The notes beneath the pieces are model-generated. The model was not told the origin of the DNA, did no database searches, and saw only the letters and a program-made list of their open reading frames with translations. A program made the position numbers and the translations under genes. Below, in pieces: positions 15,605-31,893 of a stretch of 43,573 bases of DNA; positions within the stretch are counted from its first letter, which is position 1; each line of letters begins with the position of its first letter. The stretch comes from Nitriliruptoraceae bacterium (GTDB taxonomy: Bacteria; Actinomycetota; Nitriliruptoria; Nitriliruptorales; Nitriliruptoraceae), in the NCBI GenBank assembly GCA_007120465.1, contig SKNO01000247.1:1-43573 (forward strand). Direction: 5' to 3'.

Positions 15605-18589
15605 TCAGGCTGCGCCTTCCAGCAGGGCGTCGAGCTCGGCGAGCGCGGTGTCGACCACCTCGGTGGGTGCGAGCTGGCGGCCACGCGCGGCGGCCTCGGC
15701 GGCGTCATCTCGACCGAGGCGTCGTTCCAGCGTCCCCCAGGCGGCAGCGAGCCGCTGCTCCTCGGCTCCGAAGCTGGGTGTCGCGCCGACGGTGACCGCG
15801 CCGTGCAGCAGCGCGGCCGGCTCGTCGACGCGGAGGTGCACGAGCAGCTCCACGAGGTTGCGCAGGGTGGTGAGCTGCTGCGTGTGGGCGCCGAGGGGTC
15901 GCCAGTGGGCGACGGCCTCGCGGAACAACACCAGCGCCCGCTCGGACTGGCCGGTCCGCCCGCACAGCGAGGCGAGCGAGACGAGCGCGACGCCCTCGAT
16001 GAACCGACGGCCGACCAGGCGGGCGGCGTCGATCGCCTGCTCGAGCAGCGAGGCAGCCGCGTTGGGGTCGGTGTCGAGCAGCGCCTCGCCGTTGCTGTAC
16101 AGCGCCCACGCGCGGGCGCTGAGACTGCCGGCGGTCTCGGCATCCCGACGTGCGTCGGTCGCGGCTCGGACCGCGCCGTCGGAGTCGCCGCGGTACGCCA
16201 GCGCGAGCGCGCGACTGACGCCAGCCAGTGCCCGGTGGAGGTCCTGTCCGAGCGAGTCAGCGAGGGCGAGACGCCGCTCGGCGAGCACGAGGACCCGGTC
16301 GAGGTCGCCCTCGTAGAGCGCGATCGTCGTCAGCACGTACAGCGCGAGCAGTGCCGCGACGTCGTGATGCGCGGCCGCGGCCAGCGCCGTCTCCGCGAGC
16401 CGCTTGGCACGCCGGAGGTCGCCGCTGTTCATCGCTCCCCGGGCGGCCGTCGCCACCGCAGCCGGGTACGCCGGACGCTCCGGTGCCCCCGGCAGCTCCA
16501 GGGCGCGCTCGGCCCAGGTGAACACCTCGTCGCGCGGGCGGAACAGCAGATCGTCGTGCAGGGCCGCCGGGATGCGCAGCGCCCCGTCGGTCTCGCTGTG
16601 GTCGGTCAGCCAGGCGTGGGCGACACGGAGGTCGTCGATAGCCGCGTCGAGGCGGGCGAGGGCGATGCGTTCGTCTGGACCGCGTAGCTGTCGTGCGAGG
16701 TCCTCGGCGAGGCCGACGTGGTAGGTGGCGTGCGCCTGCCGTGTCCGGTCGGCAGCACCCGTCGCCTCGAGGCGCTGTGCACCGTAGGCACGCAGCGTGT
16801 CGAGCAGGCGGTAGCGCACCTGCCCGTCGTGGCGGTCGACGGCGACGAGTGACCGGTCGACGAGTTCGGCCAGCACCCCGGCGATCTCCCACGCGTTCAG
16901 TGGCTCGCCGGCGCAGACGCGCTCGGCGGCGGTCAGCGAGAAGGCGCCGGCGAAGACCGACAGGCGGTCGAAGAGGCGCGCCTCCGCCTGGCCGAGGAGC
17001 TCGTAGGACCAGTCCACCATGGCCTGGAGCGTGCGGTGGCGGCCCGCGTCGCGACGCCCCCCGGTCAACAGCTCGAACCGGTGGTCGAGCCGCGCGACCA
17101 GGTCCTCGGGCGTGAGCGCGCGGGTGCGCGCCGCCGCGAGCTCGATCGCGAGCGGGATCCCGTCCAGCTGGCGACAGAGCTGCGCGATCGCCGGGGCGTT
17201 CGCGTCGGTGAGCTCGAAGGAGGGGTCGACCGCTCGTGCCCGCGCACGCAGCAGTGCGACGGCCGGGTTCTCGCCGACCTCGACGGTGCCGGCGCCCGGA
17301 CGCGGGACGGGGAGCGGAGGCACCTCCCAGACCCGCTCGTGGGGCAGCCGCAGGTACTCGCGCGAGGTGATGAGCGTCACCACGTGTGGGCAGTCGCTCA
17401 GGACCCGGTCCACGATCGGGGCAACCGCCCCCAGGACATGTTCGCAGTTGTCGAGCACCAGCAGCAACCGACGCGAGCCCAGCGCCCGCAGCAGAAGCTC
17501 CTCCGGCGGCCCTGCCCCGTCCTGCTGGAGACCCAACGCATCGACCAGCGCCGCGGGAACGCTCGCCGGATCCCGCAGTGCCGCGAGCCCACACCACGCC
17601 ACCCCGTCGTCGAAGCGCGCCGCCGAGTCGGTCACCACCGCGTCAGCGAGACGGCTCTTGCCGACCCCTCCTGGCCCGGTCAGGGTCACCACCCGTGCGC
17701 TCGCGAGCAGGGACGAGACCGCCGCGACGTCCTCGTCCCGGCCGATCAGATCCTGCGCGGACGGCGGCGGGGACGGCTCACGGTCGGTCGGCGTGGCGGC
17801 CTGAGCGGTGGCGGCCGGCTCGGTGCGCGTCTCCATCGCGAGACCGGCATCCTGCTGCAGGATCCGCTGGTGCAACCGCTGTACCTCGGGCGACGGGTCG
17901 ACGCCCACCTCCTCGGCCAGGCGGTGCTGCAGCTGCCGGTACACCGATAGTGCGCCGGCCTGCTGACCGTCGAGGTAGAGCGCGTGCATCAGCTGCGCGT
18001 GTGGGCGCTCGGCCAGCGGGTCGGCGGCCACCGCGCTCTCCAGGTCCGCGATCACCGACTGGTGGTCCCCGAGCGACAGCCGCGCGTCGACGAGGTCGGC
18101 GATCGCGGCCGCGCGCAGCTGGTCCAGTCGGATCGCCTCCACGCGCAAGCGCTCGTGACGTGCGAGCTCCCCGAACGCTGGACCGCGCCAGAGTCCGAGG
18201 GCGTCCTCGAGGTGGCACGCCGCCTGCGCGGGGTCGGTGGTCAGCACCTGGTGTGCCTGCGTGACGAGGGTCTCGAAGCGATCGGCATCCAGACCGTGCA
18301 CGTCGGGCGCCACCCGGTAGCCATCGGACTCGGTCACCAGCACGTCCGCGTCACCGTCGGTCGCCGCTGCGAGGGTGCGGCGGAGCCGGGACACGTGACT
18401 GTGCAGCGACTTCCGTGCGCTCACCGGGGGGCTGTCACCCCACACCGCATCGATCAGCGCCTCTGCCGAGACGACCGCGCCCCGCCGCGCCAGCAGGATC
18501 GCGAGGATCAGACGCTGATGGGCGCTGCCGACCGTGAGCCGCCGCCCGTCGGCGACGAACTCGACCGGCCCGAGCACGCGGAACTCCAT
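15605..18589 (-). CDS. AfsR/SARP-type regulator: BTAD domain + STAND ATPase + TPR-like repeats
   Basis: MEFRVLGPVEFVADGRRLTVGSAHQRLILAILLARRGAVVSAEALIDAVWGDSPP...SLHSHVSRLRRTL; BTAD VDPSPEVQRLHQRIL; Walker A LTGPGGVGKSRLADAV; DNCEHVLGAVAPIVDRVL. Confidence 0.92.
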   Translation of the reverse strand: MEFRVLGPVEFVADGRRLTVGSAHQRLILAILLARRGAVVSAEALIDAVWGDSPPVSARKSLHSHVSRLRRTLAAATDGDADVLVTESDGYRVAPDVHGLDADRFETLVTQAHQVLTTDPAQAACHLEDALGLWRGPAFGELARHERLRVEAIRLDQLRAAAIADLVDARLSLGDHQSVIADLESAVAADPLAERPHAQLMHALYLDGQQAGALSVYRQLQHRLAEEVGVDPSPEVQRLHQRILQQDAGLAMETRTEPAATAQAATPTDREPSPPPSAQDLIGRDEDVAAVSSLLASARVVTLTGPGGVGKSRLADAVVTDSAARFDDGVAWCGLAALRDPASVPAALVDALGLQQDGAGPPEELLLRALGSRRLLLVLDNCEHVLGAVAPIVDRVLSDCPHVVTLITSREYLRLPHERVWEVPPLPVPRPGAGTVEVGENPAVALLRARARAVDPSFELTDANAPAIAQLCRQLDGIPLAIELAAARTRALTPEDLVARLDHRFELLTGGRRDAGRHRTLQAMVDWSYELLGQAEARLFDRLSVFAGAFSLTAAERVCAGEPLNAWEIAGVLAELVDRSLVAVDRHDGQVRYRLLDTLRAYGAQRLEATGAADRTRQAHATYHVGLAEDLARQLRGPDERIALARLDAAIDDLRVAHAWLTDHSETDGALRIPAALHDDLLFRPRDEVFTWAERALELPGAPERPAYPAAVATAARGAMNSGDLRRAKRLAETALAAAAHHDVAALLALYVLTTIALYEGDLDRVLVLAERRLALADSLGQDLHRALAGVSRALALAYRGDSDGAVRAATDARRDAETAGSLSARAWALYSNGEALLDTDPNAAASLLEQAIDAARLVGRRFIEGVALVSLASLCGRTGQSERALVLFREAVAHWRPLGAHTQQLTTLRNLVELLVHLRVDEPAALLHGAVTVGATPSFGAEEQRLAAAWGTLERRLGRDDAAEAAARGRQLAPTEVVDTALAELDALLEGAA

Positions 18590-26582: not shown

Positions 26583-27167
26583 GTGGGTGAGCGCTCCGGG
26601 TTCCCGGACCTGATCGCGGTGCACCGCGACGGCCGCAGCGCGCGCGAGACGATCGAGCGGCTCTCCCGCGCCGGGATCGATGGTGGGGCGATCGAACTGC
26701 TCGGTGCCCGGGAGGTGGTCACCGCCGGACGCTACGGCGACCGGCAGGTCGACCGCGGCAGCTCCCTCGTGCTGGGTGGGCGGGTGCTGCGCGGGATCGC
26801 CTGGGGCCTGCCTCCCGGCATGGTGTTCGGCGCGATCGTGCTGGCCGTCGCGGCCGAGCCGTCGGGGCCCGTCCTCCTGGCGGGTGCTGCGGGCGGGGCC
26901 GGGCTGGGCGCGATCCTCGGCATCCTGCTGGCGCTGCTCACCGTCCCGACGATGGCCAGCTCGTGGGAGCGGACCTTCGCACCGATGGTGCCGGGCGGCG
27001 TCGCCGTCGGTGTGCGCGTCGACGCCGCGCGGACGCGCCGTCGGGCCCTGCCGGTGCTGCGGCGCGCGGCGGTCCACAGCCTCCTCGAGATCGTCGACCT
27101 CGACCGGTTCGTCGACGACGGACCCGTCGCCGACGAGGGACCCGCCGGTGGCGGGGCAGATCCTTAG
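26583..27167 (+). CDS. hypothetical protein with two hydrophobic segments
   Basis: VGERSGFPDLIAVHRDGRSARETIERLSRAGIDGGAIELLGAREV...GIAWGLPPGMVFGAIVLAVAA...LLAGAAGGAGLGAILGILLALLTVP; GTG start. Confidence 0.7.
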   Translation: MGERSGFPDLIAVHRDGRSARETIERLSRAGIDGGAIELLGAREVVTAGRYGDRQVDRGSSLVLGGRVLRGIAWGLPPGMVFGAIVLAVAAEPSGPVLLAGAAGGAGLGAILGILLALLTVPTMASSWERTFAPMVPGGVAVGVRVDAARTRRRALPVLRRAAVHSLLEIVDLDRFVDDGPVADEGPAGGGADP

Positions 27168-28903
27168 CCCCGCCAGCCGCTGGTGATCGGGACCCGCCGG
27201 TCCCGGCCGAAGGCCCGCTCGGTGATCTTCGGGCCGGGCGCTGCCTGCCGGCGCTTGTACTCGGCCCGGTCCACCATCCGGAGCACCCGGCGCACGATGT
27301 CCCGGTCGTGACCGCGCGCGACGATCGCGTCGATGCCGAGGTCGAGCTCCACGTACGCGCGGACGATGTCGTCCAGGGCCTCGTAGGGCGGCAGCGAGTC
27401 CTCGTCGACCTGCCCGGGTCGCAGCTCCGCGGACGGTGGCTTCTCGATCGTCGAGACCGGGATCACCTCGGCGCCGCGGTTCCGCCAGCGGGCGAGCTCG
27501 TAGACGAGCAGCTTCGGGACGTCCTTGAGCGGCGCGAAGCCCCCGGCCATGTCGCCGTACAGGGTCGCGTACCCGACGGCGTACTCGGACTTGTTCCCCG
27601 CGGTCAGCACGATCGAGCCGTGCTCGTTCGACAGCGCCATGAGCAGCAGGCCGCGGAGCCGCGACTGGAGGTTCTCGTACGCCACCCCTGGCTGGACGCC
27701 GTCGGGGTGCGCCCTGTCGAACCCGGTGACGACCAGGTCGCCGAGCACGTCGCTGGCAGCCGCCAGCGGGGCACCGATCGGAAGCTCGAGCAACCGGCAG
27801 CCCAGGTTGGTCGCGAGGGCGGCGGCGTCGGAGACCGAGTGCGTCGAGGAGTACGGCGAGGGCATGGCGACCGCGGTGACGTGGGGCGGTCCGAGCGCGT
27901 CCGCGGCGAGGGTGGTGACCACCGCGCTGTCGATCCCGCCGGACAGCCCCAGCACGGCGTCCTCGAAGCCGTTGTGGTGGCAGTAGTCGCGGGTGGCGCG
28001 GACCAGGGCCGCCCACACCTCACCGACCGGGTCGAGGGTCGCGGGCGGCGCACGCTCGGGCAGCGGGGCGCGCCCCGTCCCAGCACCTGGCAGCTGCGGG
28101 ACGTCCGGTGGCGGTGCGGAGGCGGCCACCTCGAGGTCGTGGATCACGAGGTCGTCGGCGAACTGCGCGCCCCGCGCGACGACGGTCCCGTCGGGGGCGG
28201 CCAGCATGGAGTCGCCGTCGAACACCACCTCGTCCTGTCCGCCGACGACGTTGGCGTAGGCGATCCAGGCGTCCCCCTGGGTCGCGTGGTGGCGGACCCA
28301 CCGTTCCCGGTCGCCGCGCTTTCCCCGGTGGTAGGGGGAGGCGTTGAGGCTGAGGACCACACGGGCGCCGGCGGCGACGCTCGCGCGCACCGGGCCCGCT
28401 TCCACCCACAGGTCCTCGCAGATCGTGACGCCCACCGGGATCCCCGCGATCGACACGACGCACGGCCGATCGCGGGGGGTGAAGTAGCGCGCCTCGTCGA
28501 ACACGCCGTAGTTGGGCAGGCGCAGCTTGTCGTAGGTGGCCACCACCTCGCCGTCGGCGAGCACCGCGGCCGAGTTGGTCAGGTCGCGCGTCGCCAGCGC
28601 GACGTCCCAGTGGTCGCGGTCGGTGGCGTCCCCCTCGCCGGCGCCGACGAACCCGACGACCGCGACGGTGCCACGGGGTCCTTCGGCGGCCAGCCGGTCG
28701 AGCGCGCGCAGGTTCGCGTCGACGAACTCGCGCTTGAGGAGCAGGTCCTCGGGTGGGTACCCGGTGATCGTCAGCTCGGTGAACACCACCACGTCGACCC
28801 CCTGCGCCGCTGCCCGCCGCCAGGCGTCCAGGATCCGGGCGACGTTGCCGTCGATGTCGCCGACCCGCGCGGGGATCTGGCCGAGAGCGAGCCGGAGCAC
28901 CAC
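27164..28903 (-). CDS. nadE: glutamine-dependent NAD+ synthetase
   Basis: Nitrilase-type N-domain (LALGQIPARVGDIDGNVARI...FTELTITGYPPEDLLLK...GVTICEDLW) and synthetase domain (AVLGLSGGIDSAVVTTLAADALG...TAGNKSEYAVGYATLYGDMAGGFAPLKDVPK). GTG 28903 or 28900 preceded by GGAGG; the track ORF extends to 28930. Confidence 0.95.
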   Translation of the reverse strand: MVLRLALGQIPARVGDIDGNVARILDAWRRAAAQGVDVVVFTELTITGYPPEDLLLKREFVDANLRALDRLAAEGPRGTVAVVGFVGAGEGDATDRDHWDVALATRDLTNSAAVLADGEVVATYDKLRLPNYGVFDEARYFTPRDRPCVVSIAGIPVGVTICEDLWVEAGPVRASVAAGARVVLSLNASPYHRGKRGDRERWVRHHATQGDAWIAYANVVGGQDEVVFDGDSMLAAPDGTVVARGAQFADDLVIHDLEVAASAPPPDVPQLPGAGTGRAPLPERAPPATLDPVGEVWAALVRATRDYCHHNGFEDAVLGLSGGIDSAVVTTLAADALGPPHVTAVAMPSPYSSTHSVSDAAALATNLGCRLLELPIGAPLAAASDVLGDLVVTGFDRAHPDGVQPGVAYENLQSRLRGLLLMALSNEHGSIVLTAGNKSEYAVGYATLYGDMAGGFAPLKDVPKLLVYELARWRNRGAEVIPVSTIEKPPSAELRPGQVDEDSLPPYEALDDIVRAYVELDLGIDAIVARGHDRDIVRRVLRMVDRAEYKRRQAAPGPKITERAFGRDRRVPITSGWRG

Positions 28904-28923
28904 CGTCAGACGCCTCCTGACAC

Positions 28924-28961
28924 GAAACACGACCGAAACGTGGGTTCAACGGCGAGGTAAC
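28924..28961. promoter_or_regulatory. four-unit, 11-bp-phased GlnR-box-like array
   Basis: GAAAC-acgacc-GAAAC-gtgggt-TCAAC-ggcgag-GTAAC at 28924, 28935, 28946, 28957. Confidence 0.55.
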
Positions 28962-29064
28962 CACCCCTCCGTAGCGTCCGGGACCGTACCGGCCAGGCCC
29001 GGCCGGGCGGCACCAGCGTCGCCGTGGGGCGGGCCGCCAACGAGCTGACACTGGAGGCCCTGCC

Positions 29065-30396
29065 GTGAAGCGACTGCTGAAGCTGGGGGTGGTGACGTCC
29101 GTGCTGCTGGTGGGGGCGGCCACTCCCGCCTACGCCCAGGACGCCCTCACCATCGAGGATCTCGCTCTGGGCGCCACCGTGCTGTACCTGATGGTCGCCA
29201 CGGTGCTGGTGTTCATCATGCACGCCGGGTTCGCGATGCTGGAGGCGGGGCTGACCCGGACGAAGAACGCCGCGAACATCATCGGCAAGAACCTGATGAC
29301 GATCTCGGTGGGGATCCTCGTCTACTACGCGATCGGTTGGGGTCTGATGTACGGCGAGCAGGTCGCCGGGCTGTTCGGCACCGACAACTTCCTGCTGCTC
29401 GGGGACGGCTACGCGCCCGACGCGACCCTGGAGATCGACTTCGCCTTCCAGGCGATGTTCGCGGCGACCGCCGCGACGATCGTGTCCGGTGCCGTCGCCG
29501 AACGGATGCGGTTCGGGGCCTACATCGCGGTCGCTGCGGTCATGACGGGCCTGATCTACCCGCTGGTCGGCGCGTGGACCTGGGGCGGCGGGTGGATCGA
29601 CGCGCTCGGCTTCGCGGACTTCGCCGGCTCCACGATCGTGCACATGACCGGTGGCGTGGCGGCACTGGTCGGTGCGGCGGTCCTCGGACCACGGATCGGG
29701 AAGTACGACCGGGACACCGGTGCGCCGCGGGCGATCCCCGGGCACTCGATGCCGCTGGTGGCGCTCGGCACCCTGCTGCTGTTCTTCGGCTGGTTCGGCT
29801 TCAACGGCGGCTCGGTGCTCGAACTCGACGGGGTCCTGATCGGCAAGGTGGTCGTCACCACCGCGCTCGCCGGGGCCGCCGGCGGGGTGATGGCCGGTGT
29901 CGTCACCCGGCTGCGCAACGGGCGCTGGGACGTGGCGATGACCGCCAACGGCATCCTCGCCGGGCTGGTCGGCATCACCGCAGGCGCCGACGCGGTGAGC
30001 AACGGCATGGCGGTGCTCGTCGGCCTGCTCGCCGGGGTGATCGTGGTGTTCTCAGTGGTGAGCTTCGACCGGTTGCGGATCGACGACCCGGTCGGTGCGA
30101 TCAGCGTCCACGGCACCTGCGGGGTGCTCGGGACCCTGTGGGTGGGGCTCGCGGCCACGGACGGCGGACTGTTCTTCGGTGGCGGCCTGTCGCTCCTGAC
30201 GGCACAGGTTCTCGGCATCCTGGGGGTCGCCGCGTGGGTCGGGCTGAGCTCCGCGCTCCTGTTCGGGTCGCTGGCGGCCGCCGGGCGGCTGCGGGTGTCC
30301 GAGGAGGAGGAGATCGAGGGTCTCGACGTGCACGAGCATGGCTTCCCCGGCTACCCGGAGCTCGCAGGGGGAACCAGCTACTCGTCCAACACCTGA
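29065..30396 (+). CDS. amt: ammonium transporter
   Basis: Signal-like N-terminus, then FIMHAGFAMLEAGLTRTKNAANIIGKNLMTISVGILVYYAIGWGLMYG...FAGSTIVHMTGGVAALVGAAVLGPRIGKYD...FFGWFGFNGGS. Confidence 0.95.
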   Translation: MKRLLKLGVVTSVLLVGAATPAYAQDALTIEDLALGATVLYLMVATVLVFIMHAGFAMLEAGLTRTKNAANIIGKNLMTISVGILVYYAIGWGLMYGEQVAGLFGTDNFLLLGDGYAPDATLEIDFAFQAMFAATAATIVSGAVAERMRFGAYIAVAAVMTGLIYPLVGAWTWGGGWIDALGFADFAGSTIVHMTGGVAALVGAAVLGPRIGKYDRDTGAPRAIPGHSMPLVALGTLLLFFGWFGFNGGSVLELDGVLIGKVVVTTALAGAAGGVMAGVVTRLRNGRWDVAMTANGILAGLVGITAGADAVSNGMAVLVGLLAGVIVVFSVVSFDRLRIDDPVGAISVHGTCGVLGTLWVGLAATDGGLFFGGGLSLLTAQVLGILGVAAWVGLSSALLFGSLAAAGRLRVSEEEEIEGLDVHEHGFPGYPELAGGTSYSSNT

Positions 30397-30403
30397 TCCC
30401 GCG

Positions 30404-30424
30404 ACCGTCGGCGATCCCGACGGT
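30404..30424 (+). promoter_or_regulatory. hairpin 1 in the amt-glnA intergenic region
   Basis: ACCGTCGG-CGATC-CCGACGGT, perfect 8-bp stem. Confidence 0.6.
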
Positions 30425-30427
30425 GGA

Positions 30428-30468
30428 CGCGGGTGGGGCGGCGCCGGGACGGCGCCGCCCCACCCGCG
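30428..30468 (+). terminator. hairpin 2 in the amt-glnA intergenic region
   Basis: CGCGGGTGGGGCGGCGCC-GGGAC-GGCGCCGCCCCACCCGCG, perfect 18-bp stem, 5-nt loop; no T-tract. Confidence 0.7.
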
Positions 30469-30546
30469 CGGGCGCCCCGCCCACCGCTCACTACGATGCC
30501 GGTCGCGCCGGTGACGCCGCGCGCCCGACTTCCCGAGGAGCGTCAC

Positions 30547-31893
30547 GTGGACAAGCAGCAGGAGTACGTCCTGCGGACCGTCGAGGAACGCGACGTCCGG
30601 TTCATCCGGCTGTGGTTCACCGACGTCCTCGGGTTCCTCAAGAGCGTGGCCATCACCGCCGCCGAGCTCGAGAACGCCTTCGAGGAGGGCATCGGCTTCG
30701 ACGGCTCGTCGATCGACGGCTTCGCGCGGGTGCAGGAGGCCGACATGCTGGTCGTGCCCGACGCGTCGACCTTCCAGGTGCTGCCGTGGCGTCCCGAGTC
30801 CCAGGGCGTCGCCCGGATGTTCTGCGACATCCTCACCCCGGACGGTCAACCCTTCGCCGCCGACCCGCGCCAGGTCCTCAAGCGCACCCTCGCCCGCGCC
30901 GCCGAGATGGGGTTCACCTTCTACGTCCACCCGGAGATGGAGTTCTTCCTGTTCGAGGACGTCGACAAGCCGGTGCCGCTTGACACCGGGTCGTACTTCG
31001 ACATGACGCCGCTCGATGTCCAACAGGACTTCCGGCGGCAGGCGATCAACATGCTCGAACGCATGGGCATCTCCGTCGAGTACTCCCACCACGAGGTGGC
31101 GCCTTCGCAGCACGAGATCGACCTGCGTTTCGCCGACGCACTGACGATGGCCGACAACATCATGACCTTCCGGCTGGTCGTCAAGGAGACCGCGCTGCAG
31201 CGGGGCATCTACGCATCGTTCATGCCGAAGCCGCTCGAGCACGAGTGGGGCAGCGCGATGCACCTGCACCTGTCGCTGTTCGAGGGGGACACCAACGCCT
31301 TCCACGACCCGTCGGACCCGTTCAAGCTGTCGCCGACGGCCCGGGCGTTCACCGCGGGGCTGCTGCGCCACGCCCGCGAGATCTCCGCGATCACCAACCA
31401 GTGGGTCAACTCGTACAAGCGGCTCAACGCCCGCCTGCACGGGCCGCTGCCCTCCGGTGAGGCGCCGGTGTTCGTCACCTGGGGCCGCTCGAACAACAGC
31501 GCGCTGGTCCGGATCCCGATGTACAAGCCCCGCAAGGGTGCGTCGACGCGGATCGAGTACCGCGCCCCGGACCCGGCCTGCAACCCCTACCTCGCCTTCG
31601 CCCTGATCCTCGCCGCGGGGCTCAAGGGCATCGAGGAGGGCGACGTCCTACCCGACGAGTCGGAGGAGAACACCTTCGAGCTCACTCCGGCCGAACGGGC
31701 GGCCGCCGGGATCGACCGGCTGCCGGGCAGCCTCGGCGAGGCACTCGCCCTGATGGAGTCCTCCGAACTGGTCGCCGAGACCCTCGGGGAGCACCTGTTC
31801 GCCTTCTTCCTCGCGAACAAGCGCCGGGAGTGGGACGACTACTCCGCGCACGTCACGGCGTTCGAGCTCGAGCGCTTCCTCCCCGTGCTCTAG
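30547..31893 (+). CDS. glnA: type I glutamine synthetase (alpha/GlnA2-like, no adenylylation tyrosine)
   Basis: VDKQQEYVLRTVEERDVRFIRLWFTDVLGFLKSVAI...GIGFDGSSIDGFARVQEADM...PEMEFFLF...ITNQWVNSYKRL; NTFELTPAER at the position of NLYDLPPEE. Confidence 0.93.
   Translation: MDKQQEYVLRTVEERDVRFIRLWFTDVLGFLKSVAITAAELENAFEEGIGFDGSSIDGFARVQEADMLVVPDASTFQVLPWRPESQGVARMFCDILTPDGQPFAADPRQVLKRTLARAAEMGFTFYVHPEMEFFLFEDVDKPVPLDTGSYFDMTPLDVQQDFRRQAINMLERMGISVEYSHHEVAPSQHEIDLRFADALTMADNIMTFRLVVKETALQRGIYASFMPKPLEHEWGSAMHLHLSLFEGDTNAFHDPSDPFKLSPTARAFTAGLLRHAREISAITNQWVNSYKRLNARLHGPLPSGEAPVFVTWGRSNNSALVRIPMYKPRKGASTRIEYRAPDPACNPYLAFALILAAGLKGIEEGDVLPDESEENTFELTPAERAAAGIDRLPGSLGEALALMESSELVAETLGEHLFAFFLANKRREWDDYSAHVTAFELERFLPVL

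Follow-up and report, generated by a model that had tools for sequence, protein, structure and literature searches.

A predicted GlnR operator between the divergent nadE and amt genes of a Nitriliruptoraceae bacterium and its relatives

The intergenic region between the divergently oriented nadE and amt genes of a Nitriliruptoraceae bacterium contains four phased pentamers that very probably form a GlnR operator, made up of two tandem boxes (a1-b1-a2-b2) and activating amt. Other families of the class likewise have the divergent gene pair with an array between the genes. The operator itself is of a known type; what remains of interest is the conserved nadE-amt arrangement, for which opposite regulation of the two genes is likelier than joint activation.

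Results

A phased array of four pentamers

The array, GAAAC-n6-GAAAC-n6-TCAAC-n6-GTAAC, occupies positions 28924-28961 on the plus strand of the window (the whole stretch of 43,573 nucleotides that was analyzed), with the pentamers exactly 11 bp apart (Table 1). This phasing, reported in a preliminary description of the same DNA, was confirmed and is unique: four 11-bp-phased units of the form xxAAC, or even xxxAC, are found nowhere else on either strand of the window, and no four phased xxAAC units appeared in 400 first-order Markov simulations of it. Under a weight matrix built from 26 homologous arrays, none of them from the genus of the window, the array scored 38.5 bits, compared with 5.7 bits for the runner-up site in the window and 21.0 bits for the best of 300 simulated windows. 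Short, degenerate, A-rich units in a GC-rich genome could in principle be arranged by chance, but both the score and the simulations speak against this, and retention of the array across genera and families rules it out, leaving the chance reading with a negligible probability.

Table 1. Positions of the operator half-sites, genes and putative signals in the nadE-amt region
Feature	Sequence	Positions	Strand	Remarks
nadE, glutamine-dependent NAD+ synthase, short start		27164..28903	-	NF010588 661.8 bits, cutoff 479
nadE ribosome binding site	AGGAGG	28913..28918	-	9 nt upstream of GTG 28903
Half-site a1	GAAAC	28924..28928	+	GTAAC or TTTAC in relatives / at other targets
Half-site b1	GAAAC	28935..28939	+	almost invariant
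Half-site a2	TCAAC	28946..28950	+	unit varying most
Half-site b2	GTAAC	28957..28961	+	GAAAC mostly in near relatives
Putative amt -10 hexamer	TAGCGT	28972..28977	+	10 nt after b2
Putative nadE -10 hexamer	TACGGT	28983..28988	-	faces amt -10, 5 bp between
amt, ammonium transporter		29065..30396	+	TIGR00836 405 bits, cutoff 343; GTG start 29065

The size of the units and the 6-nt spacers agree with the gTnAC/GaAAc pattern of GlnR boxes, as had been noted. The A in the fourth position, which is reported to be irreplaceable in GlnR half-sites (PMC10704036), is present in all four units; a1 and b2 deviate from the strict gTnAC/GaAAc consensus. The location previously given holds on the nadE side, where the array ends about 20-21 nt from the gene start (21 nt had been stated), and needs a small correction on the other, the gap to the amt start codon being 103 rather than 104 nt.

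Conservation and register of the half-sites

The array was present in each of the 24 amt upstream regions of a first set, invariably on the strand that encodes amt and 60-150 nt ahead of the amt match. A second set comprised 28 regions, three from the order of the window itself and the remaining 25 from other families within the class; the array was detected in 27 of them, at 9.9 to 33.4 bits (genome G046 being the exception), and nadE is divergent from amt in 21; given that the relatives share ancestry, these and the other counts across genomes are not independent. The frequency of the top base across 21 core genomes is 0.92 in the pentamers vs 0.67 in the spacers, and this contrast is greatest at the observed phase. 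Thus, the pentamers are kept more strictly than the spacers, and the lack of conservation that the preliminary description had named as evidence against an operator did not materialize.

That description had also remarked that the order of the units differs from the GlnR pattern. Elsewhere in the class, in the other families, the predominant form of the array is TTTAC-GAAAC-GCAAC with a G-rich variant as the fourth unit, and the arrays preceding the PII and glnA genes mostly read GTAAC-GAAAC-GACAC-GnnAC. In view of this classical register in the homologues and at the other targets, the difference is only apparent: to judge from these sequences, the array is in the a1-b1-a2-b2 register, with a1 having drifted from GTAAC or TTTAC to GAAAC in the lineage of the window.

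In four genomes (G009, G011, G012 and G016; loci L036, L038, L035 and L037, respectively), an extra GAAAC-n6-TTCAC pair precedes the array by about 37 nt; it may represent a third GlnR box, such as Streptomyces amtB has. In another genome (G015:C5:187217-189979; L042 and L195), two amt genes are arranged in tandem, each preceded by a GlnR-like array, and the first is divergent from nadE.

The predicted GlnR regulon and its regulator

A scan of the organism's own genome assembly, allowing up to two mismatches to a pattern shaped partly on the nadE-amt site itself, produced nine matches vs one when the pattern was reversed as a control. The sole exact match, ranking first, is the nadE-amt site; of the three one-mismatch sites that come next, one lies before a PII gene and another before the gene of a type I glutamine synthetase. 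In 36 genomes of the order, searched with at most one mismatch, there were 82 matches vs six for the reversed pattern, of which 69 precede nitrogen genes (amt, 30; PII, 24; type I glutamine synthetase, 15), 12 lie elsewhere and one is a probable glutamine synthetase site at a contig end. Recovery of the PII and glutamine synthetase sites provides independent support, despite the partial shaping of the pattern on the site under study. These sites delineate a concrete putative GlnR regulon for the class, consisting of amt, PII and glutamine synthetase; no such regulon, and no report of GlnR in Nitriliruptor, was found in the literature searched.

The amt gene of the window is followed by a glnA gene, and the DNA between them (30397-30549) contains a strong GC-rich inverted repeat and then TACGAT; there is no GlnR array in this interval, whereas a second glutamine synthetase gene elsewhere in the genome (G000:C259) has one. 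At locus L033 (G026:C27), an amt gene with an array but no adjoining nadE is followed by a PII gene. A search of plasmid DNA yielded distant amt genes only.

The assembly (3.26 Mb in 294 contigs, about 80% complete, with the window as contig C262) has 14 Trans_reg_C matches. The absence of a GlnR-type regulator would have weighed against the operator, but an orthologue is encoded on contig C1 (Pfam GlnR_1st 99.8 bits, cutoff 27), and its top match in the PDB is 8hih, with 228.8 bits vs 98.2 for MtrA. We take this entry, labelled "Transcriptional regulatory protein", to be the Mycobacterium GlnR complex; the recognition-helix segments of the two proteins differ by two conservative changes (SRTVDVHIRRLRAKLGPE in the C1 protein against TRTVDVHVRRLRAKLGPE). 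The C1 glnR gene adjoins an MshD-like gene (130 bits, under the 163-bit cutoff), a neighborhood known from Mycobacterium. At E <= 1e-40, 49 of 66 genomes from the class encode GlnR; among the 33 near-complete ones, 30 do. Within the window itself, a Trans_reg_C domain is encoded at 18314-18523 on the minus strand, inside an open frame of 1037 amino acids that is probably a large SARP/BTAD-type regulator.

The array shares with PHO boxes, the sites of PhoP/PhoB-type regulators, the 11-bp direct repeats, the initial GTT on one strand and a regulator of the OmpR family; furthermore, PhoP and GlnR compete for amtB in Streptomyces (PMC10704036), and a gene for a PhoB-like regulator adjoins phoU on contig C240 of the present assembly. 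Nevertheless, the conserved letters of the array are GTTTC, not GTTCACC, and the nadE-amt site does not match GTTCACC-n4-GTTCACC even with two mismatches, so we rejected this identification. The only exact instance of that sequence in the assembly lies on the phoU contig (G000:C240:4158-4175), and the other conserved sites of the motif under study are those of PII and glnA. A PHO box is accordingly a very improbable reading, and the array very likely belongs with the GlnR operators.

The putative amt promoter

The array, on the coding strand of amt, precedes a conserved TANNNT hexamer by 10 nt, and the two together resemble a promoter with an activator site. A TANNNT at this offset is present in 39 of the 47 nadE-amt regions and at all 16 glnA sites; it is found at none of the 23 PII sites, where the hexamers differ. 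The distance from the -10 hexamer to the transcription start is usually 7 nt, which places the predicted start of amt near 28984 and the center of the array near -41, where class II activators bind. Under this model, when nitrogen is scarce, GlnR dimers would occupy the phased half-sites on a single face of the DNA and, bound near -41, would aid RNA polymerase at the amt -10 hexamer. For amt, the array is very probably a genuine and ordinary GlnR operator.

The nadE start and a putative promoter on the opposite strand

The shorter form of nadE, starting with the GTG at 28903, had been favored in the preliminary description and is supported both by the AGGAGG upstream of this codon and by the homologues, whose alignments begin at residues 1-5 of the short form and in most cases at residues 1-3. 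There is no space for a promoter between this start and the array, so nadE transcription has to begin within or beyond the operator. A nadE promoter with both its -35 and its -10 element inside the array was considered and rejected, given that neither TTTCGT nor GTAAA makes a good -10 element and that the transcript would start within or past the ribosome binding site.

Beyond the array, a minus-strand TANNNT hexamer is present at a near-fixed offset in 28 of the 47 nadE-amt regions, in two of the eight amt-only regions and in none of the 39 glnA and PII operators (Fisher p ~7e-5 vs glnA plus amt-only, kinship ignored); in other genomes it takes the forms TACGAT, TACAGT, TACCGT and TATGGT. No evident -35 element accompanies this putative -10 hexamer. 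If genuine, the hexamer would place the nadE transcription start near 28976 and the operator inside the nadE leader. At six loci (L168, L169, L178, L182, L184 and L185), no gap separates half-site a1 from the nadE ribosome binding site (AAGG), so that the predicted GlnR binding site and the nadE leader overlap.

Joint, opposite or separate control of nadE and amt

The preliminary description proposed that a single element co-regulates the two genes, GlnR activating both. The conservation of the divergent arrangement with the intervening array bears out part of this proposal, and SCO0888, whose known GlnR box is on the non-coding strand (PMC10704036), lends it some support. The geometry does not: the array lies directly upstream of the nadE ribosome binding site and downstream of the predicted start, which is not an activator-like position, and joint activation is accordingly improbable. 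With the array facing amt and a conserved -10 hexamer on the minus strand, an increase of amt accompanied by a decrease of nadE is the likelier outcome.

Opposite regulation could work as follows. The nadE promoter probably lies on the same DNA as that of amt, in the opposite direction, such that the two polymerases would melt the same bases. If there is room for only one polymerase at a time on the shared region, activation of amt by GlnR should reduce the transcription of nadE. Work in Escherichia coli shows that polymerase can move past a bound regulator, so the operator in the nadE leader would not be repressive by itself. We tentatively suggest that GlnR-driven amt transcription lowers nadE transcription in this manner, short of considering it probable.

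The simpler possibility, that GlnR controls only amt, with nadE being a neighbor that has a GlnR-insensitive promoter and the conserved ACCGTACCGG block being part of the amt start region, is a serious contender, if not one that we would call probable. Every array reads on the amt strand at a fixed spacing to the amt -10 hexamer, the minus-strand hexamer is missing in 19 of the 47 nadE-amt regions (including those of G009, G011, G012 and G016), and nadE is nowhere named as a GlnR target in the literature searched. Against this possibility, the divergence of nadE and amt persists in the other families, nadE transcription must cross the array or start in it given the 21 nt that separate the two, and the glnA and PII operators have no minus-strand hexamer. 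A search for nadE among genome contigs, which returned mostly distant relatives, identified amt facing away from nadE at two of 80 loci, both apparently on contigs of the same class as the window.

Discussion

If transcription of nadE and amt is opposed as suggested above, the melted region, controlled by GlnR and preserved from family to family in a deep actinobacterial class, could be a nitrogen-state switch, a proposal that we put forward with slightly greater reserve still. A polymerase moving one way would yield the ammonium transporter and a polymerase moving the other way the glutamine-consuming NAD synthase, with GlnR tipping the balance. Such a switch would tie NAD synthesis to nitrogen status at the level of transcription, in a specific and testable way.

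A putative GlnR operator of two boxes, set at a constant distance from the -10 hexamer, is now described in the class, and its closest known counterparts are the GlnR operators of Streptomyces amtB and glnA, which consist of a-b-a-b boxes of the form gTnAC-n6-GaAAc (PMC10704036, PMC5826061). The likeness extends to the unit size, the 6-nt spacers, the two tandem boxes and the location on the amt coding strand, as well as to the presence of glnA and PII targets and of a GlnR orthologue in the genome. Unlike in the Streptomyces operator, a1 is GAAAC rather than GTnAC, and b2 is GTAAC; there are two boxes where Streptomyces amtB has three; PII forms a target of its own, whereas Streptomyces has an amtB-glnK-glnD operon; and nadE is divergent from amt, which is not the case for Streptomyces amtB.

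The predicted arrangement of the starts has parallels among the bidirectional promoters of E. coli, where distances of 10, 18 and 23 bp between starts are common and an activator tends to depress transcription in the other direction, mostly via competition between polymerases (PMC12825309). As in acrA/acrR and soxS/soxR (PMC12825309), the divergent starts, here predicted, would be close together (about 8 bp apart), with an activator site on one side; in contrast to the single shared hexamer of those E. coli promoters, there are two facing -10 hexamers 5 bp apart.

A connection between NadE and nitrogen status is also known from Azospirillum, where PII relieves the feedback inhibition of NadE2 upon ammonium shock, so that NadE is favored when ammonium is plentiful (PMC7646526). 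Control in Azospirillum is exerted through protein-protein interaction, whereas the control proposed here is transcriptional; a lower level of nadE under nitrogen starvation would agree with the direction of the PII-NadE2 control.
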